Positions 6,385-57,391 of a stretch of DNA of 64,000 nucleotides are shown here, in pieces. Position 1 is the first letter of the stretch; each line of letters opens with the position of its first letter. Position numbers and translations under genes: made by a program. The notes beneath the pieces were generated by a model. The model was given only the letters and a program-made list of their open reading frames with translations, was not told the origin of the DNA and made no database searches. The DNA lies in assembly GCF_910592395.1 (NCBI RefSeq), contig NC_088313.1, forward strand, positions 5,954,501 to 6,018,500. The letters are read 5' to 3'. This DNA comes from Lineus longissimus. Taxonomy: Eukaryota > Nemertea > Pilidiophora > Heteronemertea > Lineidae.

Positions 6385-6816
<432 letters not shown>

Positions 6817-10115: not shown

Positions 10116-10118
10116 GAT

Positions 10119-10741: not shown

Positions 10742-10759
10742 TGGCGACCTTCCCAGGAC
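10742..10759 (+). other. tRNA primer binding site
   Basis: TGGCGACCTTCCCAGGAC directly follows the 5' LTR; TGG pairs with the CCA end of a tRNA. The tRNA species is not determined. Confidence 0.7.
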
Positions 10760-11681
10760 CTCTCTGCGATGTCAACACCATGCGGTCACGACAATAGGCT
10801 ACATCACGTCATTGGTATATGAGGAGTAGCTTACGTATCACTTTATACATGCAAATCAGGATTCCGAGTCGATCACAACTTACGGTGGCAAGGGTCCAAG
10901 TTCGGAGTGTTCGATCACAGTGTGTTATGATTGGAGTTCAGTAACCGGTGACCTCGAGGGTGCTGGCTTCCTAAGCGCGCGCAACGATATCGTTAACATC
11001 TGCTAATAGTACATCAGGTTTGAAACGGATGCAGCAGGACTCGGAGGTTGGCCAGACATTGGAGGATCAGACTGTGCCTAATTGTGTAGTCCTTGATTGA
11101 ACATGGTGTGTTATAACGTGTGATATCATTATTTCATCTTGTATGTGTTTGTATTGGGGCAGAGAGGTGTATAATATTTCATAATTGCTGCATATATTTA
11201 AAACTATTTTAACTGGAGATTGAAAGACGTGACCACCCTGCGTTTTGATTTGAATTTTGTACGCTATTTATGTAATGTTGGTGTGTTAAGAGGAACCCAC
11301 ATCTTTAGTTACAAATTTTGAAAGTAGGGTAGAGTTGAGGTGGTTTTGCTGAAGATATTATTGGTGTATGTATATATGTTCATTTTATACTATAGAGTTT
11401 GAAGATGTTATGAGTTTGTATTGGTCCTAGAGTTGAATGTTTACCAGGATTGTGGTGATATTATAGAACAGGTCTGATGATGAGTGGAAGCGAGTGCGGA
11501 TGTTGGTGAAAGTGCGAGGGTAACTTGAAGTAGGGAATAAATTCGGTTTGAGTGTTCTGGTTCAGGTCATTACACTGCACGTCATTATATTCCAGGTCAT
11601 TGTGTTTCAGGTCGTATTGTTTTTTCCACTTAAACTAGATATAATTTATTTTGTTCTAAAGTTTGGGTGTAACGAGTAAGG
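10760..11681 (+). other. LTR element leader
   Basis: About 0.9 kb of T/G-rich untranslated leader between the primer binding site and gag. No reading frame of note. Confidence 0.6.
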
Positions 11682-14600
11682 ATGGAAAGATTGAAGGAGC
11701 TTACCCAGTTGGGAAAAGAGATGGGGTTAACCGCCAAGGATTTGAAGGCATTTGTGACGGAACAGCAAAATGCTGAGCGAGAAGAACGGGTGTCCGAGAG
11801 GGAGAAAGAACGAGAGGAGAGAGAGGCTGAGAGGAGAGAGAAAGAGAGGGAGCAGAAGGATCGTGAGCGTGAGGAAGATAGGAAGGAACGAGAACTTGAG
11901 CATCAGCGGCGGTTGGAATTATTACAGGAGCAACAGAAACTGGCAGTGTCAACAGCTAAGACCACCACCAGCACCACCAAAGTTACGCCAAAGACTCCGA
12001 GACTTCCCACATTTGACGAGACAAAGGATGACATGGATGCCTATCTTCATCGTTTTGAGCGTTATGCAGAGGCCCAATCGTGGGACAAAGACCAATGGGG
12101 TGTAAATCTTGGGGCCCTGCTGAAGGGAAAAGCATTAGAGGTCTACTCCCGCCTCTCATCGACTGAGGCCATGGATTTCCAGAAGTTGAAGGAGGCGCTG
12201 TTGGTCCGTTTTGATTTGACCGTGGATGGTTTTCAGAAGAGGTTTCGGTCAGCCAAGCCAGACGCAGGGGAAACCTTTGGACAGTTTACCACTCGCCTAA
12301 GGAACTATTTAGACCGATGGCAGGAGTTGGCGAAAGCGAGTGCAACTTTTGAGGGAATCGTTGACCTGTTTATGCGAGAACAGTTTCTCCGTGTCTGTGC
12401 ACCAGAGTTAAAGCTATTCTTACGGGAGAGAGTCCCAAACTCTGTCAAGGGTATGGCAATATTAGCTGATCAGTACAGAGAGGCAAGGGGAGGTAACATC
12501 CTGAATATTCTTTACCGGCCTAGAGCAACGGTCGGGCCAGATCCCAGGCAGCCTGAACAAGTAAAGCAGGTCTCTTTGAGGAACACTCCAACTGCTAACA
12601 GGGCTGGAAACAGATCAGATTCATCATTTGGTCAGAAACAGGGTAGCTTTTATAAGGATACGAGGAAATGTAACTACTGTGGTAAAATTGGTCACATAGC
12701 CAGGTTTTGTCATACTCGACTTGCAGCAGCAAGTATGAGAGCTGAGGGACAGCCTACTAAGATGGATTCCAGCGGGGGTGAAGCCTCTGATCATGAGGTG
12801 TCATACTGTATGGGAGTGACTCCAACGACGGGTTCAGTTCTCAATTCCGTCACTGGTGGGAACCCAACCCTCATATCCACAAACTGCTCATCGTCAATTA
12901 CTCACACAGGTGGTGGCCTGAATAGTATGCCGGTCCACTCAGGGAAAATTGACGGACATCCCGCAGTGCTAAGGGTGTTGAGAGACACTGGGTGCAGTGG
13001 AGTTGTTATTAGGAAGGACTTGGTTGATCCGGCCCGTTACTTAGGAACGACTCAGCGATGTACCCTCATAGATGGATCGACCTTGACAGTTCCGATGGCT
13101 GCAGTGGCCGTTTACACACCCTTCTATAAGGGGAAGGTTGAGGCGATGTGCATGGAGAAGCCGTTGTATGACATCATAATTGGTAACATCGAAGGGGCAA
13201 GGGAACCCGGAGACCCGGATCTCGATTGGACAGTTGCAGCGGTATTGACTCGAGCACAGAAAAAGCGTGAGAAGATGGATTTGAAGCCACTTAGAGTACC
13301 GAAAATAGTTGGTGACCTGGAAGACAAGGAAATATTCCGGATCGAACAGGCAACTGATCCTTCACTTACCAAGTTCCACCAATATGCAAAGGATGGAACG
13401 CAAAAGCGGAACAAGTATGGGGCGGTGACATCTTACAGATATAAGAAATCGCTGTTGTATCGAAAGTTTGTTTCGCCAAGAGTGGACAATGGAAAGGAGT
13501 ATCTTCAGCTCCTGCTGCCAGTGAAGTTCCGTGTCAAGGTGATGTACTTGGCCCATGACTCTCTCATGGCAGGGCATTTAGGCCGCAGGAAGACCTATCA
13601 TCGAGTATTGGACGAGTTCTACTGGCCTGGGATACAGTCAGAAGTGACTCGTTACTGCCGTTCCTGTGACCTATGCCAGCGCTTTATCCCGAAGGGCAGG
13701 GTTCTAAAGGTACCACTAGGAAAGATGCCGTTGATGGGTTCACCTTTTGAGCGTGTGGCTCTGGATTTGATTGGACCCCTGTTTCCGCCAACTGACAGAG
13801 GCAACCGCTACATCCTTACATTCATGGACTACGCAACCAGGTACCCGGAAGCAATCGCACTACCTAAGATTGAGACAGAACGGGTGGCGGAGGCTTTAGT
13901 TGATATTTACAGTCGACTGGGTGTGGCTGAAGAAATACTGACCGACTTAGGTTCGCAGTTTATCGCTGATTTGATGAAGGAAGTGAGCAGACTACTATCT
14001 TTCCAGCGAACTACAACTACACCATACCATCCCCAGTGTAATGGCTTAGTGGAGAAGTTCAATGGAACGCTCAAGCAGATGCTCAAGAAAATGTGTGCTG
14101 AGCGTCCGAAGGATTGGGATAGATATATCAACCCTCTGCTATTTGCCTACCGAGAAGTTCCGCAAGATAGTACCGGATTTTCCCCATTTGAACTCCTGTA
14201 CGGACGGTCAGTGCGGGGACCACTGTCTATACTTAGACAGTTATGGTCACAAGAGGACTTGGACCAGGAGGTGAAAACTACATACCAGTACGTGTTCGAT
14301 CTGAGGAACCGTCTGGAGGAGACATTGAAGTTGGCACAAGACAATCTGAAGGGGGCAGCCAAGAAACAGAAGCAGTATTTTGACAAGCGCACTAGAGTAC
14401 GCCAGATGAGTGAGGGTGATGAGGCGTTGGTACTGTTACCCATTAACGCCAACAAGCTGCTGATGCAATGGCGAGGCCCTTACAAGGTTGTTAAGAAGAT
14501 TAATGCCATGGACTATAGACTGATGATGGATGGGAAAGAGAGGACCTTCCACATAAACATGTTGAAGCAATATATTCCACGTGCACGAGATCAAGTTGCA

Positions 14601-15197
14601 GTTGTAGTGGAGGATGGAGAAGAGCAGTGCGCTGTGGTTTAAGAGAGTGTTGAGGCAGAACCCCCAGAGGTAGAGACTCAGCTACCAAGGTTAGAGGACC
14701 AAGTGGTGGACTTGACAAAGAAGGGACAACCAAATAAAGTTGGATGGTCCGAAGTTCAGGAAACAGCCTTTCGCAAGTTGAAACGGGCGCTTTGTTCAAA
14801 GCCCATTCTGAGACTACCAGCATTGAATGAGATGTTTATTCTTCGGACAGACGCGTCTGACAAGGGACTTGGTGCTGTGCTGCTGCAAGTAGTGGATGGC
14901 GTGAAGTTATCCATTGCCTATGCCAGTAAAAAGTTACTGCCCAGAGAACAGAACTATGCAACTGTTGAGTTAGAGTGCTTAGCGGTGGTGTGGGGTGTTC
15001 ACAAGTTCCACAGGTATCTATATGGAGTTGAGTTCATTTTGGAGACAGATCACCAACCTCTGACGTTTCTGAAAAGAAACAAGGCTAATAACAGTAGACT
15101 CATGAGGTGGGCACTGTTGTTGCAGCCCTATCGGTTCAATGTGAGAGCCATTAGGGGGGTTGACAACGTAGGAGCTGATTACCTTAGTCGGACTTAG
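11682..15197 (+). pseudogene. Gag-protease-integrase, stop, then RNase H
   Basis: One frame runs 11682-14642: a charged coiled-coil (residues about 20-90), a retrotransposon Gag domain, a CCHC knuckle (CNYCGKIGHIARFCH), a protease with DTGCSG, an HHCC zinc domain (HDSLMAGHLGRRKTYH, CRSCDLC) and an integrase core with D, D and E in ALDLIGPL, TDLGSQF and GLVEKFNG. A TAA at 14640-14642 ends it. The same frame resumes into an RNase H domain (DLTKKGQPNKVGW, FILRTDASDKGLGAVL, ADYLSRT) to 15197. No reverse transcriptase core is present. Integrase upstream of RNase H matches Gmr1-like elements, and the missing RT is probably a deletion near 14640-14700. Confidence 0.9.
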
Positions 15198-15263
15198 AGA
15201 AACTGTCTCGAATCTGAATTCTGCGAAAACGTTGAATCTTTTTGAGATCCCCTTTTTTCCCCT

Positions 15264-15276
15264 GAGATGGGGGATA
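15264..15276 (+). other. Polypurine tract
   Basis: GAGATGGGGGATA immediately before the 3' LTR, the plus-strand priming site. Confidence 0.75.
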
Positions 15277-15899
15277 TGTAACGAATTGACCGATGACCGA
15301 CCATGGTGAATAATTATGGTGTTGTAATAGTTGAATGGTGTATATAGGGTATTTTAAGAGTTGAATGGTGCTATTGTGTGACTGAGTTATTGGGTGAGTG
15401 CGTTGTTGTGTAAATATGTTTTAAGTAGGTTTTAAGGTTGGAGTTTTAGCTTTAGTCAGTAGTAGGGTGGAGTTTAGAATGGTAGGATGTATATTATGGT
15501 AGAACGAAGTTGTGGGGTAAGTTTGTTCAAAAGTTAACATTGTATTCGTGTTTGATATATTGTGATTCAGATGATAAGCCTGGTTTCTAGGCTGTTTGAT
15601 ATATTGTGATTCGGATGATAAGCCTGGTTTCTAGGCTGTTTGATATATTGTGATTTGGATGATAAGCCTGGTTTCTAGGCTGTTTGATATAGTTTGATTA
15701 TGATGATATAAGCCTGGTGCTTGGCTGTTTGATGTATTGTAATAAGGATGATATAGTGTGGAGTCATTGATCTGTGTTAGATATGTTGATTGAATTGTAA
15801 TCCCACTTCTATTATATTTGCAGTTCCTCCATTGAGTTATTAAAGACACCTGTACCTGACTGAACGTGTCGAGTCTGTTTTATCGTGCGAACCTTTACA
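15277..15899 (+). repeat. 3' LTR
   Basis: 623 bp, matching the 5' LTR over its full length by eye, followed by the ATGAT duplication. Confidence 0.95.
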
Positions 15900-16039
15900 A
15901 TGATGTATTAGCTTCTGTTTGGTGTAGGTGTTGTGATATGAGTTGGTGTTGTGATATGAGTTGATGTAGTTTACTTGGATGGGGCTTTGGTGAAGTTAGC
16001 AGTGGCTTTGCTTGAGACGTTTAGTTTTGCTTGTTTGCT

Positions 16040-16247
16040 TCATGATGATGTTATATCTGGGGATTTCTGTGCGGGTCGCTTGGCCGGGTTGGGTGTGGGG
16101 TTTCTTGATGATATTGTTGCTTTGGGAGTTTCTGTGGATGTTTCTTTTCGTTTACCAATCGCCATATGCTCCATGATGGCTTCTAGGGCGGATGTTGTGT
16201 TGTTCTGGAATTCCTTTAGTTCTTTGATTTGATTAGTTCTTTGATTA
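16040..16247 (-). pseudogene. LINE ORF1 C-terminal fragment
   Basis: Minus-strand frame reading NQIKELKEFQNNTTSALE, then AIMEHMAIGKRKETS and a basic, Pro/Ser/Thr-rich tail ending DITSS and a stop at 16040-16042. It lies upstream of ORF2 once the LTR element is subtracted, so I read it as the end of ORF1 of the same LINE, truncated at its 5' end by the H4 junction. Confidence 0.65.
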
Positions 16248-19040: not shown

Positions 19041-20102
19041 TGGGGGGGGGAGAAGGATACTTACGCTTTTACCAGGAAAACCTGTTTTCAGCATTCATTG
19101 ATTGAAGAAGCTTTGAGATCTGAAAAGAAATAATAAAGTTGGTGATTGCATTTATAATTCACTGACTAATAAGATGGCTGTGACTGTGCTTGAAGAGGAT
19201 GAGGAAAGAGTACTACGGGTTGTATAAATGAGCGGAGTTTGAGATGTGTCTTTCTGTGTGTAGTGGTTGCAGTGTTTGAGATATGCATGATGTTTTTTAA
19301 TCGCCTGGAGCTGCGTTGTTTGCAATCAGAATTTTCCCAATTGGAGTGTGTCTCAATGGTTCCCTCATGTGGTATGGAAATCTAGCTTGAGCCTGGTGTA
19401 GAAGTCTCTTGATGCTTGGTGCTCTCTTGTCGCTGAAAATGTAATTGCTGGCTAGTGTTTGGATGCGTTGTTTGGGCGTGATCGGGGACATCAGGTCTAG
19501 TACATGCCTTGAGTGCATGGAGTTGGGGATGCCAAACGCTATCTTATGAGCTTTGATGCGAAGCTTCTCCAATTTAGCGAGTTGCTTGTCCGTGAAGAGT
19601 GTGAGAGCGGTCGGTGCATACTCCATGAGTGGCGCAATCATTGCTTTGTAAATGCTGATAGTAACAGTTGGTGGAGCTCTGGGCTTGTCGTAGGTACCTG
19701 CAATGGCTTTGAGAAGTGGGATGCGGGTACGTACTCGGTCGTAGATTTTCTTGAAGTGATGGGTCATTGTCAGTCTTTTATCTAGTGTGATACCAAGGGA
19801 AGTCGAAGTGGGGCTGGCATCAATGCGTTGACCTTTAACGTGAATGTAGGCAGGGACATGTCTTTTCTTCTTGGTAATTGCTAGAAGTTGGGTTTTGTCG
19901 GCGTTGTATGTCTGCCTCCATTTGTAGCTCCAAGATTCCACGCTGTTGTTTTGAGTCTGGAGGTTTTCTCTGGCTACGTAGTGGTGAAGGTGGGCAGACC
20001 ATGCAGTCAAGTCGTCGGCGTACTGTTCTTGTCCATTGAGGTCGATTGGGGCGAGGGGGCGAGGGATGTCATTAACCCACAGGAGGAAGAGGGTGGGTGA
20101 GA
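19041..20102 (-). mobile_element. 5'-truncated LINE at the H2B start site (family 2)
   Basis: Starts with a C-run (G at 19042-19050) and is flanked by the 12-bp duplication GAATAATGCGGT (19029-19040 and 20103-20114). Sequence differs from the unit A/B/C/D LINE at protein level but has the same architecture. It is co-oriented with H2B and placed between its TATA position and ATG. Confidence 0.88.
19297..20102 (-). pseudogene. Reverse transcriptase C-terminal part, LINE family 2
   Basis: The open frame starts within RT at LFLLWVNDIP and includes the catalytic NGQEQYADDLTAWSAH box, thumb residues (LLKAIAGTYDKPRAPP) and the C-terminal REPLRHTPIGKIL. Upstream RT, endonuclease and ORF1 are missing by 5' truncation. 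It belongs to the same jockey-like group as the other promoter LINEs. Confidence 0.85.
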
Positions 20103-20114
20103 GAATAATGCGGT

Positions 20115-21247
20115 GTTGTTGTTAAAGTATTTATTGCTAGACCCTTTTCAATTTACATTGTCTTCAGGCGTCGACACGATACAACTGTTACACGAGGTGT
20201 TTGATCAATATGCGTACATGACTATGTTGGCAGATTAACAGGACTACTGTCCTTGAATACTTGATCATTAGCACAAATATATCATCAAATACAGCATAAA
20301 AGAGAGTAATCAACTTATATACACTAATGTACAAATCAGACAGTTACAATATCATGAATAGTTGCATGATACTCGGCGGTGCTGAGGTTGTGACGGTACG
20401 ATGCTCGAAATATCAAAGTCTACTAGTGGGAGCCTGGGTCGTAGCCCTGGCTTAGAGTTCAGTGTTCATAGACGTAAGGTCCTACCGATGGGGGTGGAGT
20501 ACAGAGGATGTAACATCCTGAGCGGCATTTTGTTCTTCGTTGAGTCAATGAGAGTTCTAATACTCGGGGCGCGCTTATCGCTGTCAATGTACTTTTTGGC
20601 TAGAGTTTCTATGCGCGATTTTGGTGATTCACATTGCATGGAGTCCTTTATATGATTACCGTTCATCGATTTTGGAATGCCGTATGCAATCTTGTAGGCG
20701 CGAGTTCGTAGTGAGTCCAACTTCTCAAATTGTTTATCGTTTAGGAGCATCAGCGCCAAGGGAGCATACTCCATGATTGGACGAATCATTGTTTTGTAGA
20801 TGCTAATGGTGACACTAGGCGGAGCACGGGGGTGATCGAAAGTACCGGCGACTGCTTTTAGTAACGACACACGCTTGCTGACGCGATCAAAAACTTTTTT
20901 GAAATGTTTGGACATAGTTAGTTTATTGTCAATGATGACACCAAGGTTGTTTGCGGATGATGACGCGTTAATTCGTTGACCCTTAACATGTATGAATGCG
21001 GGGTAGTAGAGTTTTTTCTTCGACATTGCGACGAACTGGGTTTTGTCGGCATTGTACGTTGTTCGCCACTTGTCGCTCCATGTAGCAATGTCATCGTTCT
21101 GTTTTTGGATAAGCGTTTGGGCAGCGTGCTGACATCGGTGTGCCGACCAGGCCGAGAGGTCGTCAGCATATTGTTCTTGGCCGTTTTTGTCCGGTGGAGC
21201 AGGAGGCGATGGAATGTCGTTCACCCAGAGCAGGAAAAGCGTGGGTG
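20115..21247 (-). mobile_element. 5'-truncated LINE at the same H2B site (family 3)
   Basis: Third jockey-like family with a different 3' end, an AACAACAAC tail rather than poly-C, abutting the same GAATAATGCGGT target copy at 20103-20114. It therefore entered the same position as family 2, and earlier. At its 5' end it joins H3 downstream sequence, so the H2A gene and flanks have been deleted. Confidence 0.82.
20466..21247 (-). pseudogene. Reverse transcriptase C-terminal part, LINE family 3
   Basis: Encodes the C-terminal RT with the NGQEQYADDLSAWSAH catalytic box, thumb LLKAVAGTFDHPRAPP and end LYSTPIGRTL. It begins in nearly the same RT codon as family 2. Endonuclease and ORF1 are absent. 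Confidence 0.85.
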
Positions 21248-21326
21248 AAATTTATTTGCCAAATGCAAATGGACTGAGAAACATGGGATCTGTCATGGGG
21301 ACTCGGAACAATATATTCGTTTCGGG

Positions 21327-22431: not shown

Positions 22432-24898
<2,467 letters not shown>

Positions 24899-24908
24899 GG
24901 CGATTTCC

Positions 24909-26517: not shown

Positions 26518-26536
26518 CTAGCAGAATGAGCAACTG

Positions 26537-26638
26537 GGGGGGGAGGATATTTTGAAGGGCGGCTAGCATAAAGCCATGTTCAGCCCCACAGTGGCAAGGA
26601 AGCAAAGGGCTCGGTGTGTCAATGTATGTATAAGCAAT
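26537..26638 (-). mobile_element. LINE 3' end at the H4 start site, unit B
   Basis: About 100 bp of the same LINE 3' terminus (C-run, AGGATATTTTGAAGGGC on the plus strand), with an internal deletion, joined to H4 5' UTR at GAGCAACTG. It ends at an H3 5' UTR piece, which marks a recombination breakpoint into unit C. Confidence 0.85.
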
Positions 26639-27162
26639 TTATGATAATGGCGATTTGGGGGGGGGGGAGGATATTTTGAAGGGCGGCTAGCATAAAGCCA
26701 TGTTCAGCCCTGCATGTGGAGAAGGTTTAACTTTGAAGATTGGAAGTAGTACAGTCTGGACAGTGGCAAAGGAGGCAAAAGGCTTGGTGTGTCAATGTAT
26801 GTATAAGCAATTTGTAAATGTGCGTATTTGCATTGAAGTCTTTCCCCATTGTGTAATATGTTGTATTTACTTTGTGGTTTGTTATGGTAGTGTTTGGCTG
26901 TGTTTTTTTTTTTTTTTTTTTATTTTTATTTTATTTTATTTTTTTTTATTTTAATTTTAATTTTATAATACCACTGAGAGATGTAATAAGCTGTGTGAAT
27001 GATGATTGCATTGGTGTGTTGTATTTACTTTGTGGTTTGTTATTGTAGTGTTTGGCTGTGTTTATGTAACGGATTGTGTAATGTATGAAGTGATGAAGGT
27101 ATTAACCTGGTGACTGGCAAAACAATCCAATCAACCAGTTTCCCTGAAATGAGTGCTATTTT

Positions 27163-28299
27163 TTAATCCATGAGTAGTGCTTTTCCAATTGGTGTATGGC
27201 GCAGTGGATCGCGGAGTTTGAATGGAAGTCTGTCTTTAGCTTGATTGATGAGGGCTTGAATTGACGGCGCGCGTTTGTTGTTATTCACGTACTTTTTGGC
27301 GAGATGTTCGATTCGGGCCTTTGGCGTTTCGTTTGTTGGCATAGAATCTGCGACGTATCGACTGTGAAATGATTTTGGGATACCGTATGCGATTTTATAA
27401 CTCATAGTACGTAGGTTTTCAAGCCTGCCGTACTCGTCGTTATCGAAGAAAGTAAGTGCAGTTGGACAATACTCCATGATTGGCCTGATCATAGTTTTAT
27501 AAACACGTAGAGTTATCTCAGGTGGCGCGCGTGGCTTGTAGTATGAACCGGCGATGGCTTTCAGGAGTGGAATGCGTTTGCAGACTCGGTCGTACATCAG
27601 CTTGAAGTGTGGTCTCATGGTGAGCCTCTTGTCTATGGTGATGCCGAGGGCGATGACAGTGTCTGTAGCATTAATGCGCACGTTGCGGACGTAGATGTAG
27701 GCGGCGTTTGGATTTTGGAGTTCACGTTTTGATATAGCGATGAATTGCGTTTTAGCGGCGTTGTATGTAGTCCTCCACTGGTCACTCCAGACGGCGATTT
27801 GATCGTTTTGTTCTTGGAGCATGTCCCTAGCAATGAAGTATTCTTTATGAGCGGCCCATGCGGTTAAATCATCGGCGTATTGTTCCTGACCGTTGTTACC
27901 TGGCGGTGGTGATGGAATGTCATTGACCCAGAGAAGAAATAGCGTAGGTGAGAGAACACTTCCCTGAGGTGTCCCGGCTGGAATCGGGAGTCTAGCGCTA
28001 TGATGTTGTGCTACTCTAAATCTAGTTGACCGATTTGTGAGAAAGTTTCTGAGGAGACGTATTAGACCAGTGGAGAAATTTTCATTTGCGCGTAGTTTAT
28101 AAATTAGGCCATCGTGCCAAACTTTGTCAAAAGCCTTTTCTACGTCATAAAACGCAGCCATGACGGTGTTTCCGCGGTGGACATGATGACTGGCATGTTG
28201 TAGGAATCTCGTGATTGGATCTGCTGTGCTGCGGCCGTTGCGGTATCCCGATTGATATTCATTTAGTTTACCATTGTCCTCCAGGTGTTGTCGGAGCCT
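27163..28299 (-). pseudogene. Reverse transcriptase fragment of the unit C LINE
   Basis: Open frame from mid-RT (QHLEDNGKLNEYQSGYR) through the YADD box to GKALLMD, encoding the same protein as the unit B fragment where they overlap. Incomplete because of 5' truncation. Confidence 0.85.
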
Positions 28300-28338
28300 G
28301 ATGTTTATTGTTTATTTATTAAATAAACAATAAACATC
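28300..28338. repeat. 39-bp near-perfect palindrome at the LINE 5' end
   Basis: GATGTTTATTGTTTATTTA is followed at once by its inverted copy ending AATAAACATC. The left arm continues LINE sequence only for its first bases. It probably arose by snap-back synthesis when the truncated cDNA was finished. Confidence 0.85.
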
Positions 28339-28348
28339 ATGGCGATTT

Positions 28349-28699
28349 CCTCTATGCATACTCTTTATACTAGGACGTTGCCGAATTCGACGCGCCTCAT
28401 TGGCTGCTCTACTCGCGCTTTCGTGAATGTACGCGCGCTGATTAGTCAATTTCGCGAAATTCATCTCATTTGCATACAGGTCATAACATCGTGTACCGAA
28501 TTCATTGTGAGATATATGGTCGTATGCTGGCTCTAAATTTTGCATGTATTTTGAAAATGTTGTCCTTTTTTGTGTATAATTTGTATGAGATGTGGCCGGG
28601 AAGATGAGGAGAAATGAACACACATCATTTGACGACATCTTGTTAATATCATGGAACCGGTCGCGTTCAACAAATGAACAAGTGTGCTCATTGCATTTT
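28349..28699 (-). promoter_or_regulatory. Orphan H3 promoter, unit C
   Basis: TATAAAG at 28363-28369 (minus strand), inverted CCAAT near 28399, octamer ATTTGCAT near 28468. It now faces the LINE instead of an H3 gene. Confidence 0.8.
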
Positions 28700-32200: not shown

Positions 32201-35200
32201 TATGAACAAAAACGCTGTTAAATTTTGATTGCACGAGCTAGGGACCGTTATCGGTCACATATTGGCAACCTTGTGTGCACGTTTCGCTGTTATCCAACAT
32301 AAATTGGCAACATTGGGTGAACACTTCGCTGTTATCGAACATTTATTGGCAATATTGGGTGAACACTTTGCTGTTATCTGACAACGATTGTCACCACCGA
32401 AGATGTTGTCAAACTATGTAAGATAACGACGAAGCGATAACCCAAGGTTGCCAAAGATGGTCGGATAACAGCGAAATGTTCACCGATATTGCCAATCTGT
32501 GCTGGATAACGGCGAACGTTGCCAAAGTGTGTAAGATAACAACGAAGCGTGCACACAATGTTGCCAATGTGTGGTGGATAACGGCGAAGCCTGCACCTAA
32601 TGTTGGCAGAGTCTATGCATGAATGTATTAGCCTGCATAGGCCCCTATACCCGCTGTACATTTTACATGGGGAAAGCATTGTAGCTACTCTAAAATGGCA
32701 TTTTTAACAGCCTGGTGGTAAATATTTCAAGGTGACCAGAAATCACATTGAGCCCCTACCCAGGCGCTTTTTTTAAGGATTTCCCTCATTATTTTCTATT
32801 CGGGACGACAATTCAGTCCAAGATCAGGCTACGAGTCCCTGTTGTTTTCAGTTTAAAGAGAAGAACAATTCCTTCATTATGAATTACTAACTTTATTGGA
32901 CAAACCTTTATTTCAATTTATTTCAGTCTGAGGAGGAGTACTTTTCTAGCATTATGAATTGATAACTTTATTGGAAAAATAAAATTAAACTCATTTTAAT
33001 TTCTTTCAGGAGGAGGAGTACCATTCTAGCTTTGATGACTATCAAGTGCAGAGTGAAGAAGACCCGGCTGGGCATACGCAGGACTCAGACGGTTGTCAAT
33101 CTGTAAGTGTTATGCCTGTACTACTGGAGCCACTCACTTTATATAAATACTAGTGCACCCACTGCGTTGTAATGTAAAGATCGATTGCAATTTCAACATC
33201 ACTACAGTAAAGAAATTTCATCAAGCAATGAGTGAAAAACTAGATGATTTTATACTTTCAATTTATCGATGACGACATATTTGGAGTTGAAAGAACTATT
33301 AAAATATTTTTCGCCGCTAAACGATGTTGTCATTTTGGTTTCATTTGATGATAATCGATATCTATTGTTACTTTATTTACTTATTAACGAAACTAATTCA
33401 ATCCTTTCATTCCTTTTCAGTCTGGAGAGGAGTACCAGCCTTCGCTACATTCCAGTAATGACGGAAGCCTCGTTTCTGAGAAGTCGCTGAATTCTATCTT
33501 CAGCGGGGTAGAACCTCCCAAAGGAGTCGCCGAGAGCGTCGAAAACTCCTCGAAGGAACAACGGGTCGAGGAGAAACGGACGACCAAGCCGAGGAAGCCG
33601 AGAGAGGAACGTACGCTTAAAGGAGCCCCTAATATGGGGGTGGCGCGAAAGCGGGAGGGAAGACGCCCCAAGCGGCCGTGCCCAGTTCAGGGTTGCCATG
33701 CCACCCCGGGAAACTTTAAGGAACATTTATTCTTTACCGCTTGTCACGAGGACCTAGACATTCACTTCAGAAACAACTTGCTCATGCGAGCTAATAGGGA
33801 CCGCGCGATCACCAAGGATTCAAAAAGGGGCAAAACGGCCGCCAGCAATACACGTGATCGTTACTGGTTGCAGTGCGACATTTGCGATCATTTCAAAGCA
33901 AACTTGGCGCCACACTTGCGTCGATATCACGGCATCAGTGACAATAGGGTGATCGCAAATTGTCTAGAAAGTGCAACAAGGGTGAAAAAATCAACACTAG
34001 TGCAGCTCAACCACCAACCTGAGCCTGTACTGAAGCGTATGGTCCCAAAGTTTGAGGAGTTTTTGCGCAGTCCGATAGGCAGTGGCTTTAGTCAAAACAC
34101 TGCCAGAGCGCACGGGCGTCGTTTTTCTACAATTTGTAAAGAATTGGCTGGGGAGGGGAGGGAGTTCAACTTGGGAGATCTGAGATTATTGTTAGGAATA
34201 GGAAACGATGGGGGTTTGGTAAGTCAGTGGGTAAACGAATCAAGATTCAAGGCCGGCTATATTACAAATTTACTGGTGAGCACAAAGCACTTTCTTCGCT
34301 TTGTGACTCTCAACAAAGAATTTGGACTTGGTTGGGTGACAAGGCAAACTGGCATCGACGAATATCTGGCCCACTTGAACGGCATCCAAGGGTTTTTGTC
34401 CAAAATAAGAAGGCGGGAGACTGTGGCCAACTACGACGCGATTGGCACGGACACCATTGACCAACTCGCCTGGAGTGGGTACAACACTAGTGACACCTGG
34501 CGTACAATACAAGGATATCTTGAGAAATTGCTGACGAATCCGAATGTGACGACTGCCTCAACAAACCTAACCATCCGAAATCACCTCATACTACGTCTTT
34601 TCTTGGACAACTTCCGACGAGCTGGCGATATTGCCCATTTTTCACTGGTGGAATTTAACAAGGCTGAGTTGGTTGAGGGGGACTATGTGACCACGATTAG
34701 GCGCCACAAAACCGACGGGAAGTATGCAGCGCCCCTCGTAATGAAGCCAGAGGTCAAGCGGGCAATTAAGATATACATTAGAAGTGCGAGGGAGACAACA
34801 TGTCCGGCAGAAGATCAACAATGTGTCTTTCTGACCACCACCGGAAGACCCCTCGACTCGAGTGATATCAACAAAAACCTAAAAGCAGCCTGGGGCGACT
34901 ACGGCAGGGACCTTGGAAGGGACATTGGGGAAATAACGGCTACCAAGGTCCGCCGTTCTGCCGTAACAATCACGCGTCAAGCGAAAACAACTCAAGAGGA
35001 CCGTCGACAAGTTTCTCAAGCAATGTGCCATGACATCGACATTGCAGACAAAATTTATGACCGCAGCGGGCAGAGAGAGCGAGGCCAGTCGTCTGCGACT
35101 ATTGTAAAACATTGTCTCCAAGAGGTGATGCACAAAAAGTACGGTCACATCCTAAGAGGCGAAGATGACGCTGAAGATGAAATGATACCGCCAACACCAC

Positions 35201-35796
35201 CCCGTCCTAACAAACGATTGAGTTTGCTGATGAGAAGACATGGGACAAGCGAAAGTGAAGATGTCAACATCTCAACGACAGCCCCTCCTCCTCAGAAGCG
35301 TTGCAGGCCTAATCCTCACCCTGGTCCTGAGGACGAAGAGTCGGAAGCGGAATTTTCGATGGCTCCAGTTTCATTGGGCAGTAAGGCAACTAAGGCCAAG
35401 AAGCAGAAGACGTGGAAGAGGGAACTCGTGGGGAAGGAACTCGAACTCCTGCTGAAAGTTTGCAATCCCCTCATTACCGAGTTGGTCATGAAAGTTACGG
35501 CTCCAGTATCAAGAATGGAGGTGGAGCGAATGGTCCGTATTGGTGCAGAACACTACCGCCTCACTGGAGACTTGGACAAGGCAGCGGCCATTGAAAACCT
35601 TGAACGGTTCGGAGGGATCAAGTTGACGCACATGGTTCGCTACAGTGTCCAAAAACTCAGGAAGGAAAAGGGATATGTTAAGCCTAAAAAGGACAGTCTG
35701 AAGCCACTATCACTCCAAAAGCCATCTGCCGCTGCAGGCTCAGTAGAACAAGTAGAAGCAACGGACGAAACCATCCCTCGTGCTGAACAAACATGA
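29218..35796 (+). CDS. Zinc-finger tyrosine recombinase, multi-exon (Crypton-like)
   Basis: Inferred phase-0 exons are 29218-29832 (charged coiled-coil, then basic), 30321-30449 (acidic), 33010-33102 and 33421-35796. The last holds 71 linker codons and the 720 codons from 33634. Counting from that methionine there are two C2H2-like fingers (C16/C21/H31/H38 and C81/C84/H94/H99), an alpha-helical core-binding region (about 135-300) and a tyrosine recombinase domain with R329 (FRRAGD), K363, R440 (TKVRRS), H466 (MCHD) and Y475 (IYDR). The box II histidine is threonine. The C-terminus has an acidic linker and an unrecognised helical domain (about 590-690). A candidate exon at 31395-31663 is frameshifted and may be skipped. 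No start exon was found, so the 5' end may be lost. Confidence 0.75.
30700..31060. repeat. Inverted array of GTTATC...GGCAAC motifs (1)
   Basis: Several copies of GTTATCC, about 10 bp, then GGCAAC in plus orientation (30720-30860) are followed by the same motif inverted (30890-31040), forming a large potential hairpin inside an intron. Linkers carry TTCGC-type sequence. A homologous array lies at 32250-32620. Confidence 0.8.
31770..31850 (-). repeat. tRNA-like sequence, probable SINE head
   Basis: On the minus strand TTAGCTCAGTGGTAGCGC fits a pol III A box and D arm, and GGTTCGAAACC fits a B box 35 bp on, with CAT in the anticodon position. The anticodon and T stems do not pair well, so it is a degenerate tRNA or tRNA-derived repeat rather than a working tRNA. 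Confidence 0.6.
32250..32620. repeat. Inverted array of GTTATC...GGCAAC motifs (2)
   Basis: Second copy of the hairpin array, followed like the first by a shared flank (TGCATGAATG, ...TACATGGGGAAAGCATTG). Together with the duplicated exon starts this points to tandem duplication of about 1.5 kb. Confidence 0.8.
32927..32962 (+). pseudogene. Decayed duplicate exon start
   Basis: After TATTTCAG the sequence reads SEEEYFSSIMN and then a stop. It is homologous to the starts of exons at 31395, 33010 and 33421 (SGEEYQPS or EEEYHSS). An exon relic within the recombinase gene. Confidence 0.6.
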
Positions 35797-41065: not shown

Positions 41066-41333
41066 GATGAATCAGTGACGAATAATGCGGTTTGAAATTT
41101 TTCAAATTTATATGGCGGCGGCGGATCCTGATGTCGATTTTTACGCGTCCGTAAATTTGCATATCAAATTTGCATACGAATCATTGTACTCCACTACTGA
41201 CACTCCACTACGCTACCTCTCTGGTGTATAGCGCCGCGCCGGGCACCTTGAAACTCACCAATTCGGCAACACTTGAAACTACACTAAATCGACATCAGGA
41301 GCCTTTTCCGAATATAAATACTTTGAAAGCCAG
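41066..41333. promoter_or_regulatory. Divergent H2B/H2A promoter, unit D
   Basis: H2B TATA at 41106-41112 (minus), octamers at 41155-41162 and 41168-41175, H2A TATAAAT at 41313-41319. A LINE begins just after the H2A start-site region, so H2A is displaced by 1.2 kb. Confidence 0.85.
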
Positions 41334-41345
41334 TTTTGGCTTTAT

Positions 41346-41922
41346 CGCTATATCAAAACGTGAACTCCAAAATCCAAACGCCGCCTACATCTACGTCCGC
41401 AACGTGCGCATTAATGCTACAGACACTGTCATCGCCCTCGGCATCACCATAGACAAGAGGCTCACCATGAGACCACACTTCAAGCTGATGTACGACCGAG
41501 TCTGCAAACGCATTCCACTCCTGAAAGCCATCGCCGGTTCATACTACAAGCCACGCGCGCCACCTGAGATAACTCTACGTGTTTATAAAACTATGATCAG
41601 GCCAATCATGGAGTATTGTCCAACTGCACTTACTTTCTTCGATAACGACGAGTACGGCAGGCTTGAAAACCTACGTACTATGAGTTATAAAATCGCATAC
41701 GGTATCCCAAAATCATTTCACAGTCGATACGTCGCAGATTCTATGCCAACAAACGAAACGCCAAAGGCCCGAATCGAACATCTCGCCAAAAAGTACGTGA
41801 ATAACAACAAACGCGCGCCGTCAATTCAAGCCCTCATCAATCAAGCTAAAGACAGACTTCCATTCAAACTCCGCGATCCACTGCGCCATACACCAATTGG
41901 AAAAGCACTACTCATGGATTAA
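41346..41922 (+). pseudogene. Reverse transcriptase C-terminal fragment, unit D LINE
   Basis: In-frame from IAISKRELQNPNAAYIYVRN through LLKAIAGSYYKPRAPP to GKALLMD and stop. It starts downstream of the YADD box, so it has no catalytic core. Confidence 0.85.
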
Positions 41923-42517
41923 AAAATAGCACTCATTTCAGGGAAACTGGTTGATTGGATTGTTTTGCCAGTCACCAGGTTAATACCTTCATCACACCAA
42001 TGCAATCATCACTCACACACAGCCTATTACATCTCTCAGTGGGGACGAGGAGTGCATTCGTTCGTTTTGCCGGTTACTGGTCTCCACTGTATACATTACA
42101 CAATCCGTTACATAAACACAGCCAAACACTACAATAACAAACCACAAAGTAAACACAACACACCAATGCAATCATCATTCACACAGCTTATTACATCTCT
42201 CAGTGGTATTATAAAATTAAAATTAAAATAAAAAAATAAAATAAAATAAAAAAAAATAAAATAAAATAAAAAACACAGCCAAACACTACCATAACAAACC
42301 ACAAAGTAAATACAACATATTACACAATGGGGAAAGACTTCAATGCAAATACGCACATTTACAAATTGCTTATACATACATTGACACACCAAGCCTTTTG
42401 CCTCCTTTGCCACTGTCCAGACTGTACTACTTCCAATCTTCAAAGTTAAACCTTCTCCACATGCAGGGCTGAACATGGCTTTATGCTAGCCGCCCTTCAA
42501 AATATCCTCCCCCCCCC
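41346..42517 (+). mobile_element. 5'-truncated jockey-like LINE at the H2A start site, unit D
   Basis: 1172 bp on the plus strand, flanked by the 12-bp duplication TTTTGGCTTTAT (41334-41345 and 42518-42529), ending in a nine-base C-run (42509-42517). The same family as in units A-C but in the opposite chromosomal orientation, because H2A itself is on the plus strand. Confidence 0.95.
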
Positions 42518-42568
42518 TTTTGGCTTTATTGTATTTGTTTCTGCCGAGCAACATACTAAACCATCATC

Positions 42569-42946
42569 ATGTCTGGACGAGGAAAGGGAGGAAAGACAAA
42601 AGGAAAGGCAAAGAGCAGGAATTCAAGGGCCGGACTTCAGTTCCCAGTTGGTCGTATCCACCGTCTGTTGAGGAAGGGAAACTATGCCGAGCGTATCGGA
42701 GCTGGAGCGCCAGTATATCTTGCAGCCGTCATGGAATATTTGGCAGCCGAGGTCCTCGAGTTGGCAGGCAATGCAGCCCGTGACAATAAGAAATCCAGGA
42801 TCATCCCTAGACATCTCCAACTCGCCATCCGTAATGACGAAGAGTTGAACAAGCTTCTCTCCGGTGTCACCATCGCCCAAGGTGGTGTGTTGCCAAACAT
42901 CCAGGCTGTCCTTCTCCCCAAGAAGTCTGGAAGCGCCAAGAAGTAA
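42569..42946 (+). CDS. H2A: Histone H2A, unit D
   Basis: Complete 125-codon H2A: basic tail, [20 protein letters not shown], the acidic-patch helix region and end [12 protein letters not shown]. One difference from unit E, asparagine for serine in the tail (SRNSRAG). The stem-loop is intact. The LINE between TATA and ATG replaces the native start site, so expression is uncertain. Confidence 0.96.
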
Positions 42947-45691: not shown

Positions 45692-46081
<390 letters not shown>

Positions 46082-47089
46082 TTATTCATTTACAATTACT
46101 GTATACAGGGGTTTTACAAAAGATGTATCTATTTGTTTAAAATTTTTCATTATTTTACTGTGAGCCCGTCCGGTGCCGTCCCGACGCCCGTGCTGAAAGC
46201 CCTATTGGCGAGACAGCACTCGGCGTCGCGACGGCCCCGTCGATCCCACAGTACTCCATATGGAATTGGGGGACTACTGCGAAGCCGCCCCCGAACCGTC
46301 CCGATGCCCAGACCGACGTCATACTTTGTGTCGCCGACCCCGGCACCGAAACGGCCCGTTGCCGTCCTCACAGTACTCCCCTTACGCTCTCTGTGAACCC
46401 AGACTTAGTATTTACAAAACATACATACATATACGCCTTCCAAATAATGTCCATTGAAACTAATTTTCACTTTATAATCTTAACTGTTTACTTTTTTTGT
46501 TTTAGCACCAATGGAAGAATTAATTAACATGTGAGCACCAAGTATATACGTGTACGGAATATTCAAAACTATTGGCACCACTTATTGCATTTTGATATTT
46601 AACATTTTATTATTTTTGTTGTAGCACCAATAGAAACGGAACATTTAATTATCTGATTAAATCAATGTGGATAAAACGTGCCAGTGTAAATTGAAGGCAT
46701 ACTAACATAAAATAATAACATAATAACATAAAACATAAAGGTTTAAAACATAAATTAATAACATAATTCATAACTCATGTTTAAAACTATGTGCCTATAG
46801 TGCTCAATGGCAAGTATATACATATGTGCGCCCAGTGCAAGGGGTCGAGACCATCCATCTGGTCTCATTCTGACCCCTGCTTGGGAACTGGGCTAATCTA
46901 AGTCGCCAAAAAATTTTATACTATGTTTTAAAATTCACATTTCTGTGCGTGCGTTCAATTAATACCCTATATACATATATTTACAATATTTACAACTAAC
47001 TATGCAAGATGTAAAATGCAAAAAGAATGAAGGAAAAAGAAAACAAGAGGGAAAAAAATATATTTTTGAAGGAAATTGAACAGTGGAAT

Positions 47090-47170
47090 ATGGCAGGTTC
47101 GAACCCGGGACCTCCCGCGTCCGAATCATGCACGTTCCCGACAGGCTAGCAAGCCGATACGCTAACGACG
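47090..47170 (-). repeat. tRNA-like sequence in Tx1 3' region, copy 1
   Basis: Minus strand TAGCGTATCGGCTTGCTA can form a D-arm stem (TAGC/GCTA) and fits an A box; GGGTTCGAACC fits a B box. The remaining stems are poor. It is present in both LINE copies, so it belongs to the element or is an old SINE insertion in it. Confidence 0.55.
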
Positions 47171-47399
47171 TGAATTTTTAAAATCGTATACCATTCCCAC
47201 ATTGTGGGGAATCCCCTTACAGTCTGTTTTGAACTCTGTTGTCGAATTCGTTTTGCTCATTTCGATTTTTCCCCTGCCAAAGACTGGCTCTCCCTGTCCA
47301 AATCGTGTGAATATAAATCCCCAAAACCCCCACTATTTTATCTACCCCTTTGCTATTTGCAAAAACCGGACATGTGATATTTTCCCAGGTTGGCGCTGG

Positions 47400-50279
47400 T
47401 CATCCTTGTATTCTTGACAAATTTGACAACGAGTTCAAAACAGGCTGTATCGTAGCGCAATCATAAAAAGCATGTTTCATGGATTCCGTCTGCATTTTAC
47501 ACCTCGCACAGTTCTTCTGGATATTTGGCAAATATTTAAACAAGGATTTTACAGGTAATGCTCTGTGTACAAATTTATAAAATAGTTCTTTCTCATTATT
47601 ATATAAAATTTTGTTGTGCCATATGTTTTTCCATATCTTTTTCCAGTTGATATTATACATTTTGGTACACACGGTATGTGGGATTTGAACCCCATTTTTC
47701 ATAATTTTCTCATATAAAGCAGCAGCTGTGATTTTAACCCATTGTGACCTACCCATACCCAACTTTGCCGCTTTACACTGGTATAAAACCTCTTCCCACA
47801 CACCGTGTCTACCAATAACTCTGTGCATATAAGTATTTTTGGCAATTTCGGGGCAGTGATGCCGCAGTGTTATGCCCGCTTTGTAAATGCCGTACCCTAT
47901 CCATGGCTGTGTGACCCCCTCGTCTTGTACGTGGTAGAGTCTTTTTAACCTTTCCATGAACAGGGCCCGACATTTACTGGCTACATGCGGCATCCCTACC
48001 CCTCCATCTTCAATTGCCTGCACCATAGTGCTTCTTTTAATCAATTCCATTTTGTTTGACCATAAAAATTTAAACAATAATTTCACAAACCCGGTACAAT
48101 ATTTCATTGGCAATTTCATAATTCTCGCTCCGTACCATAATTTAGAAACGAGGACGGTTTTTATCACCAAAACTTTCCCTATAAAGGACAGGTGTCTATT
48201 TTCCCATAACTTTATTGTTTTCCCCACTTTTTCCATGATTTTCTTCCAATATGTCTTCCCACAAGGCCCTGCCTTGTTCCAGGGTATCCCCAAAATGTTT
48301 GAAATTTTCACTATATATTTCCTGTACTCTATAGGGATGTTTTGGTGCGAAAAACCGCCTAACAATAATATTTCTGTCTTTGATATATTTATATCAGACC
48401 CCGAGGCTTGGCCGAAATCATTGTATATGGAGAATAGAGCTCGTATACAGGGTGCTGCAATCGGGTGCGTGGCATCATCCGCAAAGGCAATGTTTTTAAC
48501 CTCTTGTTTTACGTTAGGCAGCTTAATGCCCCGCACCCGTTCGTCAGAGCGCACGGCGCAGGCGAGCGGCTCCTGGCAGAGTACAAACAGCAGCGGGGAC
48601 AGACTGCAGCCCTGTCTAACTGATCTGCCCACCCTGAATGTCCCTGACAGGAATCCATTCACCAGCACCCTACTCTCCGGCGCATCATACAGCACCCTCA
48701 TCCATCTCATAAAATTTCGGCCAAACCTCATGGTCTCTAAACATTGAAATAGCCATTCATGAGATACTAAATCGAAGGCTTTTCGGAGGTCAACGGCCAC
48801 CAGTGCACCCCCGGAGTCCGCCGCATGTTCGATGACGGTTTGAATATTGAACAGTTGATCATTGATTGATCTTTTGGGGACTCCGCATGCCTGATCAGGG
48901 TGCACTAGGTCGCCCATGACCCCCGACAGTCTCGACTTTAAAACTTTGGTGATAATCTTATAATCTACCGTTAGCAAACTTACAGGTCTATAATTTTTAA
49001 TATCCCTCGGATCCCCTTTTTGAACAAAATAGATATCACTGCCGTTTTCATCGTTCCCCCCAGTTTTTCCCGTAAAAATACATTATTTATAGTCTCTACC
49101 AAATCGTCCCCCAATAGCTCCCAGTAATACAAATAAAACTCTTTTCCTAACCCATCAATCCCCGGTGATTTTCCCGCCTTCATATTTTTTAATTCCCTCA
49201 AAACCTCCCCTGTAGATAACAAACCCTCCAATTTATTTTGTTGTTCCCCAGTTAGTTTCTTATGGATTTTTGATGCGAACCTGTCCCTAGCCACCTTTAC
49301 CGTATCACCTTTCCTATATAAATTCTCGTAAAACCTTTGTACCTCTTTTAAAATTTCATCTTGTTCTTCTAAAACCTTTCCATTTTCATCCTTTAACTGA
49401 TCAATAACTGTCTTTGTCCTCACTTCTACCTTGAAAAAATCAGTGGTCGGTGCTTCCCTCTCCTCTATGAATTTTGCCCCCGCCCTCACTTTTGCCCCCT
49501 CCAAATCTGCCATTTCCAATTTGCTCAATTCCCCTCTTACTTCCCCCCACCGCCTTGTAATGTCCACCCCTCTGTCCCTCTCCTTCCCCAAAAAGTCCAA
49601 CTCCCTCTCCAAAGCTAAAATACCTTCCCCTCTCTCCCTGTTCACCCTCTTACCATTCCTTTTGAAGATCCCCTGTAACTTTTGTTTCCCCTTCTCCCAC
49701 CACTCTATTGGACACCCAAAATTTCCCTTCCTTTTTTGCCAACCCTTCCAAAACTGTGTTACCTCCCTTACTGTCCCCTCTTCCCCTAATAGGCTATTAT
49801 TAATTTTCCAAAATCCCTTTCCCATTTTCTTCTTCCCTGTACTTTCTACCGCACCCAACACACCGTAATGGTCTGTAAAAACCAGTGGGACATGATCTAC
49901 CTTACCTACCTTTAAATTCGTATAAATACGGTCAATTCTGGACCTAGTTTGGCCTCTATAAAAAGTGAAACTATCTACCGTGGGATTTAAATCCCTAAAT
50001 GCATCTTTAATATTTAATAAATCTATAATCTCCTGCCAAAGCTTTTTATACAAGATGTCCCCTGGTAACAAAGTCCCCGTCCCTCTATCGTTCCTTCCCG
50101 AAGCAAAATTAAAGTCCCCCCCTAAAATCCACTGTTCCCCCCTAAATTTCCTCACATACTCTTTTAGCTTTTGACAGAAGATTATAGCTTTATCGTGGTT
50201 TTTAATTGGATTCTGTGTGGGCATGTATACAGAGAGAACATGCGTGCCGGACCCCAGGCGCACATGGCATATGACATGG
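47400..50279 (-). pseudogene. Tx1-like LINE ORF2, frameshifted, copy 1
   Basis: The upstream part (50279-49000) has the end of an APE endonuclease (GGDFNFASGRNDRG, SRIDRIY, FTDHYGVLG) and early RT. The downstream part (from about 49010) has RT (NYRPVSLLTVDYKIITK, RQGCSLSPLLF, FADDATHPI) and a CCHC-like end (CARCKMQTESMKHAFYDC). One T is missing from a T-run near 49020 compared with copy 2, splitting the frame. A TGA at 47400-47402 replaces a tryptophan codon of copy 2. The RT sequence style and C-terminal zinc motif point to the Tx1 clade of the L1 group. Confidence 0.88.
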
Positions 50280-51384
50280 CCACGTCCAGACATATTCTTT
50301 TTTTTTTTTTTTTGCAGCATAAACCCGCAGTGGGTATCTTTTATTTCACGTATCCAAACGGGCATATACAATTATTCATTTACAATTACTGTATACAGGG
50401 GTTTTACAAAGGATGTATCTATTTGTTTAAAATTTTTCATTATTTTACTGTGAGCCCGTCCGGTGCCGTCCCGACGCCCGTGCTGAAAGCCCTATTGGCG
50501 AGACAGCACTCGGCGTCGCGACGGCCCCGTCGATCCCACAGTACTCCATATGGAATTGGGGGACTACTGCGAAGCCGCCCCCGAACCGTCCCGATGCCCA
50601 GACCGACGTCATACTTTGTGTCGCCGACCCCGGCACCGAAACGGCCCGCCGCCGTCCCCACAGTACTCCCCTTACGCTCTCTGTGAACCCAGACTTAGTA
50701 TTTACAAAACATACATACATATACGCCTTCCAAATAATGTCCATTGAAACTAATTTTCACTTTATAATCTTAACTGTTTACTTTTTTTGTTTTAGCACCA
50801 ATGGAAGAATTAATTAACATGTGAGCACCAAGTATATACGTGTACGGAATATTCAAAACTATTGGCACCACTTATTGCATTTTGATATTTAACATTTTAT
50901 TATTTTTGTTGTAGCACCAATAGAAACGGAACATTTAATTATCTGATTAAATCAATGTGGATAAAACGTGCCAGTGTAAATTGAAGGCATACTAACATAA
51001 AATAATAACATAATAACATAAAACATAAAGGTTTAAAACATAAATTAATAACATAATTCATAACTCATGTTTAAAACAATGTGCCTATAGTGCTCAATGG
51101 CAAGTATATACATATGTGCGCCCAGTGCAAGGGGTCGAGACCATCCATCTGGTCTCATTCTGACCCCTGCTTGGGAACTGGGCTAATCTAAGTCGCCAAA
51201 AAATTTTATACTATGTTTTAAAATTCACATTTCTGTGCGTGCGTTCAATTAATACCCTATATACATATATTTACAATATTTACAACTAACTATGCAAGAT
51301 GTAAAATGCAAAAAGAATGAAGGAAAAAGAAAACAAGAGGGAAAAAAAATATATTTTTGAAGGAAATTGAACAGTGGAATATGG

Positions 51385-51460
51385 CAGGTTCGAACCCGGG
51401 ACCTCCCGCGTCCGAATCATGCACGTTCCCGACAGGCTAGCAAGCCGATACGCTAACGAC
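51385..51460 (-). repeat. tRNA-like sequence in Tx1 3' region, copy 2
   Basis: Same A-box and B-box arrangement as at 47090-47170. Confidence 0.55.
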
Positions 51461-51507
51461 GTGAATTTTTAAAATCGTATACCATTCCCACATTGTGGGG
51501 AATCCCC

Positions 51508-54070
<2,563 letters not shown>

Positions 54071-57072: not shown

Positions 57073-57391
57073 GATGAATCAGTGACGAATAATGCGGTTT
57101 GAAATTTTTCAAATTTATATGGCGGCGGCGGATCCTGATGTCGATTTTTACGCGTCCGTAAATTTGCATATCAAATTTGCATACGAATCATTGTACTCCA
57201 CTACTGACACTCCACTACGCTACCTCTCTGGTGTATAGCGCCGCGCCGGGCACCTTGAAACTCACCAATTCGGCAACACTTGAAACTACACTAAATCGAC
57301 ATCAGGAGCCTTTTCCGAATATAAATACTTTGAAAGCCAGTTTTGGCTTTATTGTATTTGTTTCTGCCGAGCAACATACTAAACCATCATC
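57073..57391. promoter_or_regulatory. Divergent H2B/H2A promoter, unit E
   Basis: H2B TATA 57113-57119 (minus), octamers 57162-57169 and 57175-57182, H2A TATA 57320-57326 (plus). The TTTTGGCTTTAT target of the unit D LINE is uninterrupted here (57341-57352). Confidence 0.88.

Follow-up and report, generated by a model that had tools for sequence, protein, structure and literature searches.

What places LINE insertions at nearly the same distance from the TATA box in histone genes of different kinds? The window (the whole analysed stretch of 64,000 nucleotides, C6:5954501–6018500, within a 391-Mb genome) carries histone units A to E with several such insertions, and the original prediction had held that their offset to TATA is shared. 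We counted this offset from the first T of the TATA box (T1) to the start of the target duplication.

Spacing of LINE insertions in histone genes

In the H2A gene of unit D, the TATA box (TATAAAT, 41313–41319, + strand; PWM score 11.3) was the best within 60 nt 5′ of the target, and the upstream copy of the target duplication, TTTTGGCTTTAT, started at 41334, giving an offset of 21. This 12-nt copy (41334–41345) spans the predicted start site and is repeated at 42518–42529, followed by the H2A leader and ORF (42569–42946). Between the two copies lies a 5′-truncated LINE of family A with a C-tract end (41346–42517, + strand), the 5′ edge of which is uncertain by a few bases; its aligned parts showed 95.8–99.8% identity to other copies. 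In the H3 gene of unit C, the TATA box (TATAAAG, 28363–28369, − strand; PWM 10.5) was likewise at offset 21 (28369 to 28348). Here the target (28348–28337) and the family-A LINE, which has an inverted repeat at its 5′ end, occupy 26657–28348 (− strand), and the second target copy starts at 26656. This LINE is trailed by a second, H4-directed family-A 3′ end (26536–26640, − strand; terminus 26536), a short piece ahead of the H4 leader AGTTGCTCAT (26535–26526).

The H3 target and family-A LINE of unit B (22887–24908, − strand; T1 24927) gave an offset of 21 (24927 to 24906), or of 19 if the target includes two ambiguous G's (24908), as predicted. The identity of this insertion to the L031 insertion (100%), together with their identical junctions, indicates one event. 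In the H3 gene of unit A, the 3′ part of a family-A LINE (6789–10118, − strand) is interrupted from 10119 by an LTR element; the LINE picks up again at 15900–16232, with an H4 promoter ahead of that part. This element is thus a mosaic with its 3′ end in H3 and an H4 promoter as its 5′ flank, and because of the mosaic structure and the LTR split the spacing was not measurable there. The interrupting LTR retrotransposon (10119–15899) has repeat ends of at least 10119–10700 and 15277–15858 and an ORF (11682–14642) with integrase, H2C2 and SCAN-like domains.

The H2B insertions of the window were of other families. A family-B LINE (19042–20102, − strand) is flanked by ACCGCATTATTC (20114–20103) and AACCGCATTATTC (19041–19029), and a family-C LINE with a recombined 5′ side (20115–21248, − strand) lies at the same H2B target. 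The treatment of all inserts as one LINE family was therefore wrong, the H2B inserts being different from the H2A/H3 element; the claimed H2B offset of 21 was recovered on the intact promoter of unit E (57093–57119, − strand), with T1 at 57119 and the target start at 57098. Single H2B junctions gave 19 (L050, family B), 20 (window, family B) and 21 (L011, family A). The pattern TATAAAT-N14-GAATAATGCGGT gave no match, its orientation and spacing being wrong.

Similar distances were found with degenerate elements. H4 promoters have CAAAAAG or CATAAAG in the TATA position, with no consensus TATA, and the insertion is at offset 22 from that element, while the H3 promoter at L029 has TACAAAG instead of TATA and is still targeted at 21–22. 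An exception was the H3 array L030/L019, with an offset of 8. At L030 (C6:5832000–5841999), tandem truncated family-A LINEs lie behind an H3 promoter, and the outer 3′ junction is 8 bp after the TATA.

One family-A copy (L029) has an open endonuclease/reverse-transcriptase frame of 919 aa. This frame identified family A as an APE-type LINE by its Pfam matches to PF03372 (E 4.4e-12) and PF14529 (E 6.5e-11), and contains a reverse transcriptase (PF00078, E 9.5e-31); no RNase H domain was among the three Pfam families matched at E up to 1. Against PDB, the reverse-transcriptase frame matched LINE-1 ORF2p (E 2.9e-24) and R2 (E 1.4e-14). ORF1 (353 aa in L034) has CCHC-like motifs by eye, with a zf-CCHC match at E 0.24, and gave no relative at E 0.001. 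By these domains and by a remote relative named jockey, family A may belong with the Jockey-type LINEs, having an APE endonuclease and reverse transcriptase, no RNase H found and, as a putative further trait, CCHC-like motifs in ORF1; LINEs of that type are not known to keep a fixed promoter distance. Among the best 120 of 949 matches, the closest relative of the frame had 56% identity (P0001), and the named relatives were remote (Holothuria leucospilota, 37%; Cryptotermes jockey, P0112, 27%). The longest copies have approximately 5.1–5.2 kb of LINE sequence. The 3′ end is constant in sequence and carries a C tract after it; 5′ truncation and target duplications of differing length are further LINE traits of the family. 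Compared with family A over the last 265 residues, the C-terminal reverse-transcriptase part, the proteins of families B and C were 58% and 57% identical. The non-histone copies L034 and L036 were 99.7–100% identical to the nearest histone copies in the aligned parts, and the identity between histone and non-histone copies reached 99.9–100%, indicating that one young family inserts at both kinds of site.

Genome survey and spacing outside histone genes

The whole genome was surveyed with the family-A 3′-end pattern at up to two mismatches. This pattern was found at 28 places and the reversed control pattern at none genome-wide. Six of the places (L018, L024–L028) hold only the last 45 to 100 nt of the 3′ end. 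Among the other 22 3′ ends, 11 adjoin histone leaders, three (L002, L003 and L021) belong to an array of tandem LINEs that follows an H3 promoter, and eight lie elsewhere, at seven distinct sites. Those at histone leaders are in H3 (n=6: L001, L004, L006, L007, L009 and L019), H4 or H4-like genes (n=3: L005, L008 and L020), H2A (n=1: L010) and H2B (n=1: L011, at C6:9.204 Mb); the non-histone ends are L012–L017, L022 and L023, with L015 and L016 in one duplicated flank. These are counts of 3′ ends and not of independent events, since L007 (unit B) and L004 represent a single insertion, and the 3′ part of L005 is shared with L008. Family B was found at five places and family C at ten, the latter including the H2B site. 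In family C, L057 could not be scored, nor could the three copies that share its 3′ flank, and L062, L064 and L065 run past the 1.3 kb fetched, leaving their 5′ flanks outside the data.

We scored a site as fitting when the best TATA (PWM score of at least 4) lay 20–22 bp from the target start or the 5′ junction. The best TATA within 60 nt was at 20–22 in 11/13 family-A entries, a scoring that takes in three H3 entries at the usual place; the misfits were L030, with its offset of 8, and L017, which has a weak AT-rich element, AATAATTA, at 21 (score 1.4). Outside histone genes, the offset was exactly 21 at L014 (TATAAAAAGGGTACAATTTCA, then ATCACTGT), L015/L016 (TATAAATCGTGGAAGGAACGC, then GCCCGATTTCAC), L023 (TATTTAATGGGATAGCGTGGG, then TTTCCGA) and L013 (TATATGAGTTAGGCCATATGA, then ATGCCTAATTTCC). 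At L012, TATATAAACTGGGGTTTTTGGC precedes TAGATT, which lies 22 from the first T and 20 from TATAAA. L014 adjoins a downstream open frame starting MPAAKRHAY, which resembles a transposase gene. Of the family-B copies, L053 has TATATATA at 20 and a duplication with one mismatch, L052 has a clear duplication and no TATA at 20–22 on the sense side, and L054 has no clear duplication. In family C, TATAAATTCTGCCCAAATGAA at L061/L067 is followed directly by the LINE, giving an offset of 21 by the 5′ junction (no duplication was found), and L060/L068 has a clear duplication (L068) and no TATA at 20–22 on the sense side.

Taking the distinct sites of families A, B and C together, 11/14 fitted (P = 4e-18), and so did 7/10 of the non-histone sites (P = 2.4e-11), against a null of 0.0154 per site (a random position in the fetched DNA with the best TATA, scoring at least 4, at 20–22); the P values are approximate, because we fixed the one-base tolerance and the score cut-off with the junctions already in view. 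Non-histone sites of family A alone fitted in 5/6 cases (P 5e-9), and the scorable ones of families B and C in 2/4. An offset of exactly 21, the value taken from the histone sites, was found at 5/10 non-histone sites (null 0.0054, P 1e-9). In contrast, on the opposite strand, at the 3′ side of the same 10 sites, the fit was 1/10 (L068, with a weak TATA scoring 4.2 at 22). These results bear out the predicted recurrence of the spacing at other promoters. The 14-site count leaves out L016 (a duplicate), L022, L054, L066, the offset-8 H3 array, repeated H3 events, the unreached family-C copies and the six short copies. L054, L066 and L022 were left unscored for want of a clear duplication or for a lost 5′ flank, the latter at L022, which stands head to head with L011. 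With these three and the six short copies taken as misses, the non-histone fit was 7/19 (P 9e-9). All sites are standing insertions, in which preference and survival are not separable, and histone insertions can also spread via recombination between units.

The short copies L018 and L024–L028, otherwise unrelated, have in common a LINE 3′ end of approximately 45 nt (about GCTGAACATGGCTTATGCTAGCTGCCCTTCAAAATA plus the C tract). Two are without a candidate duplication and four have candidates, none of them fitting. These copies may be older elements or SINEs; perhaps the common 3′ end marks a SINE that uses the same reverse transcriptase.

Target region and selection of the insertion site

The nick-site columns (−8 to +13) of the 11 fitting sites contained at most 0.56 bit, compared with a null 95% value of 0.68, which agrees with the claim that the targets have no sequence in common; the TATA columns were informative in these sites because the sites were selected for TATA. 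The LINE lay in the orientation of the TATA box at the fitting sites, as the claim of gene-sense insertion requires, and its 3′ end met the target about 21 bp (19–22) from T1. Target duplications were approximately 8–13 nt. Seven of 12 sites had an initiator-like motif scoring at least 3 within positions +8 to +11 of the target (null 0.127, P 2e-4), namely H2B, H3, H4, L012, L014, L023 and L053. The H4 promoter, the weightiest case, combines a good initiator with an element other than TATA and an insertion at offset 22 from that element. H2A (2.98) and L015 (2.5) scored just below 3, and L013, L017 and L052 had no initiator in this range. From the initiator position, the start is predicted 29–32 bp downstream of T1, and the duplications then extend from about −10 to about +3, which by these predicted starts would be the region that melts in the Pol II initiation complex. 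PMC8636136 cites, for the Pol II bubble, a size of about 6 bp in the open complex and an expansion to about 13 bp, and models TFIIE contacts at −13 to −10. The upstream edge of the target is where the LINE 3′ end is attached, so target-primed reverse transcription would put the first nick in the template strand near −10.

We consider it probable, at roughly three in four, that the Pol II core-promoter complex positions family-A integration. TBP, or a preinitiation complex containing it, would serve as the ruler; the endonuclease would nick the template strand near −10, where the melting region begins on its upstream side, the freed 3′ end would prime reverse transcription, and a second nick would follow near +2/+3. 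The new copy would then begin where host transcription starts, with a functional TATA box upstream, and could be transcribed as the host gene was. Their high activity and their TATA dependence, probably in S phase, would make histone promoters favoured targets. The original proposal holds for the fixed distance, the orientation and the lack of a shared target; its further point, that the preinitiation complex or the melted promoter is recognized, we infer.

A LINE whose own proteins read TATA-like DNA by its sequence or by its shape and cut with constant spacing, with no host factor, would also place a TATA-like element at a fixed distance, as in 11/14 sites, because a DNA-binding ruler predicts identical spacing and orientation. 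We regard this explanation as unlikely, since the degenerate H4 elements and the TACAAAG of L029 are used at the same spacing and initiator-like motifs are rightly spaced in 7/12 targets. The numbers of available sites also weigh against it. The genome search gave 10 H2A matches at 9 places, and from the count of this one core histone we guess that core histone promoters probably number some 40. The frequency of TATAWA, 1.9 per kb in the 12 loci that were fetched and 2.7 per kb across the window, extrapolates to a genome total of 0.73–1.05 million, the fetched loci not being a random sample. That a few dozen histone promoters draw 11/22 family-A 3′ ends, against some 0.7–1 million TATAWA, indicates that the TATA sequence alone is insufficient without promoter activity, an argument that stands even when duplicated events are taken into account.

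Open or single-stranded DNA where strongly transcribed genes start, as a bubble or R-loop, could instead be the substrate, with TATA a mere mark and no specific protein contact involved. The duplications of 8–13 nt are near the size of the expanded Pol II bubble as given in PMC8636136 and span about −10 to +3 relative to the predicted starts, and H4, with no consensus TATA, is a target. However, this explanation predicts frequent TATA-less targets, whereas TATA was out of place in 3/14 sites only and its spacing was tight (19–22) at the other 11/14; we judge it quite improbable. The remaining explanation, that there is no targeting and that a few insertions spread by unequal crossing-over or conversion, the non-histone spacing being chance, draws on the single event behind unit B and L031 and on the mosaics of units A and C. 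It is contradicted by the non-histone count (7/10, P near 2e-11) set against the opposite strand (1/10), and the differing 5′ ends, different genes and unrelated targets also oppose it, leaving it hardly credible.

R1 (28S rDNA) and Tx1-clade LINEs inhabit multicopy host genes, and R1/R2, Utopia and Tx1-clade LINEs use a common target sequence. R2 (28S rDNA) and Utopia (U2 snRNA) are, like family A, LINEs in multicopy host genes; unlike the R1/R2/Tx1 type, family A showed no common target sequence around the nick at the 11 fitting sites. The statement of the original prediction that known targeted LINEs recognize sequence holds for this type and was incomplete, as position-guided targeting is known for Pol III genes from TRE5-A of Dictyostelium. 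According to the TRE5-A reports, 59–85% of its insertions, by data set, lie within 47 ± 3 bp upstream of tRNA genes, and its ORF1 interacts with TBP, Brf1 and Bdp1. Family A resembles this L1-clade element as an APE-type LINE placed by promoter distance with the target sequence free; TRE5-A inserts upstream of Pol III genes in the opposite orientation, whereas family A inserts at the predicted start of Pol II TATA promoters in promoter sense. Yeast Ty3, according to PMC5911963, integrates at the Pol III start site and requires TBP and Brf1 in vitro; unlike family A, it is an LTR element with an integrase and uses Pol III genes. A fixed core-promoter distance without a target sequence, the feature of the TRE5-A/Ty3 type, is found in family A, the targets of which do not appear to be Pol III genes: they are core histone genes and sites with TATA, often with initiator-like motifs.

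Among the open-licence papers listed by the literature searches, titles and abstract openings mentioned no LINE fixed to a Pol II TATA box and no histone-targeted LINE. TRE5-A and Ty3 come nearest, and the precedents found for a LINE guided through a transcription complex are from Dictyostelium and its Pol III genes. Position-guided targeting as such is known for Pol III; its form at Pol II TATA boxes appears to be new. If the Pol II ruler is true, family A would offer a naturally occurring means of insertion at +1 of active TATA promoters and would illustrate reverse transcription primed inside the initiation complex, and the sustained expression of a LINE that lacks a promoter could be explained. 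Notable, too, is the burden for the host, with 11 family-A 3′ ends at histone leaders and H2A found at 9 places.

Possible promoter capture and other elements

Two 5′-end traces suggest that the LINE may be transcribed from captured histone promoters. In the L036/L037 copy, CCCCAGTTGCTCAT lies between the target and the LINE body and corresponds to a LINE C tail plus the H4 target; it would most simply derive from an RNA read across a tandem pair of LINEs at an H4 site. The L048 copy (L017) begins with CATCATTC, which corresponds to the H3 leader near the predicted start site, a weak trace because the LINE 5′ end is itself CATTC-rich. A LINE that captures Pol II promoters, with its endonuclease acting on the open preinitiation complex, where it would nick the exposed template strand at the bubble's upstream edge, and with full-length copies starting at the host +1 behind the TATA, is therefore a tentative reading, to which we give somewhat less than even odds. 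Such a LINE would need no promoter of its own and would replicate from whichever genes it captured, and its copies would mark active TATA promoters base by base.

The spacing rule is a property of some LINE families and is clearest in family A. A family-D LINE, with 54% identity in its best stretch, has the TATA inside its own duplication, TGTATAAAGAC. This LINE (L032 and L049, about C6:9194700–9199500, − strand) has an open ORF1 of 434 aa, and the family-A 3′ end L022 adjoins its 5′ edge.

The window contains another LINE (46005–53925, − strand) with an APE endonuclease, reverse transcriptase, zf-RVT and a poly-A tail, which we take to be Tx1/L1-like. It is present as two tandem copies, both 3′ flanks of which start with GAATATGTCTGGACG at the H4 start codon. 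The copies are 99.7% identical and differ in their 5′ ends, suggesting that this LINE may be specific for the H4 site. The family-C copies L057, L058, L059 and L063 (on C2, C3 twice and C16) have nearly the same 3′ flank, running into MPKRNSYPCGDCKRQC, which is either a dispersed repeat carrying the LINE or a repeated gene targeted at one site. A 720-aa frame at 33634–35796 (+ strand) showed a weak tyrosine-recombinase likeness (Phage_integrase, E 4.4e-4, below the Pfam cut-off) and is perhaps, by this likeness, part of a Crypton- or DIRS-like element.
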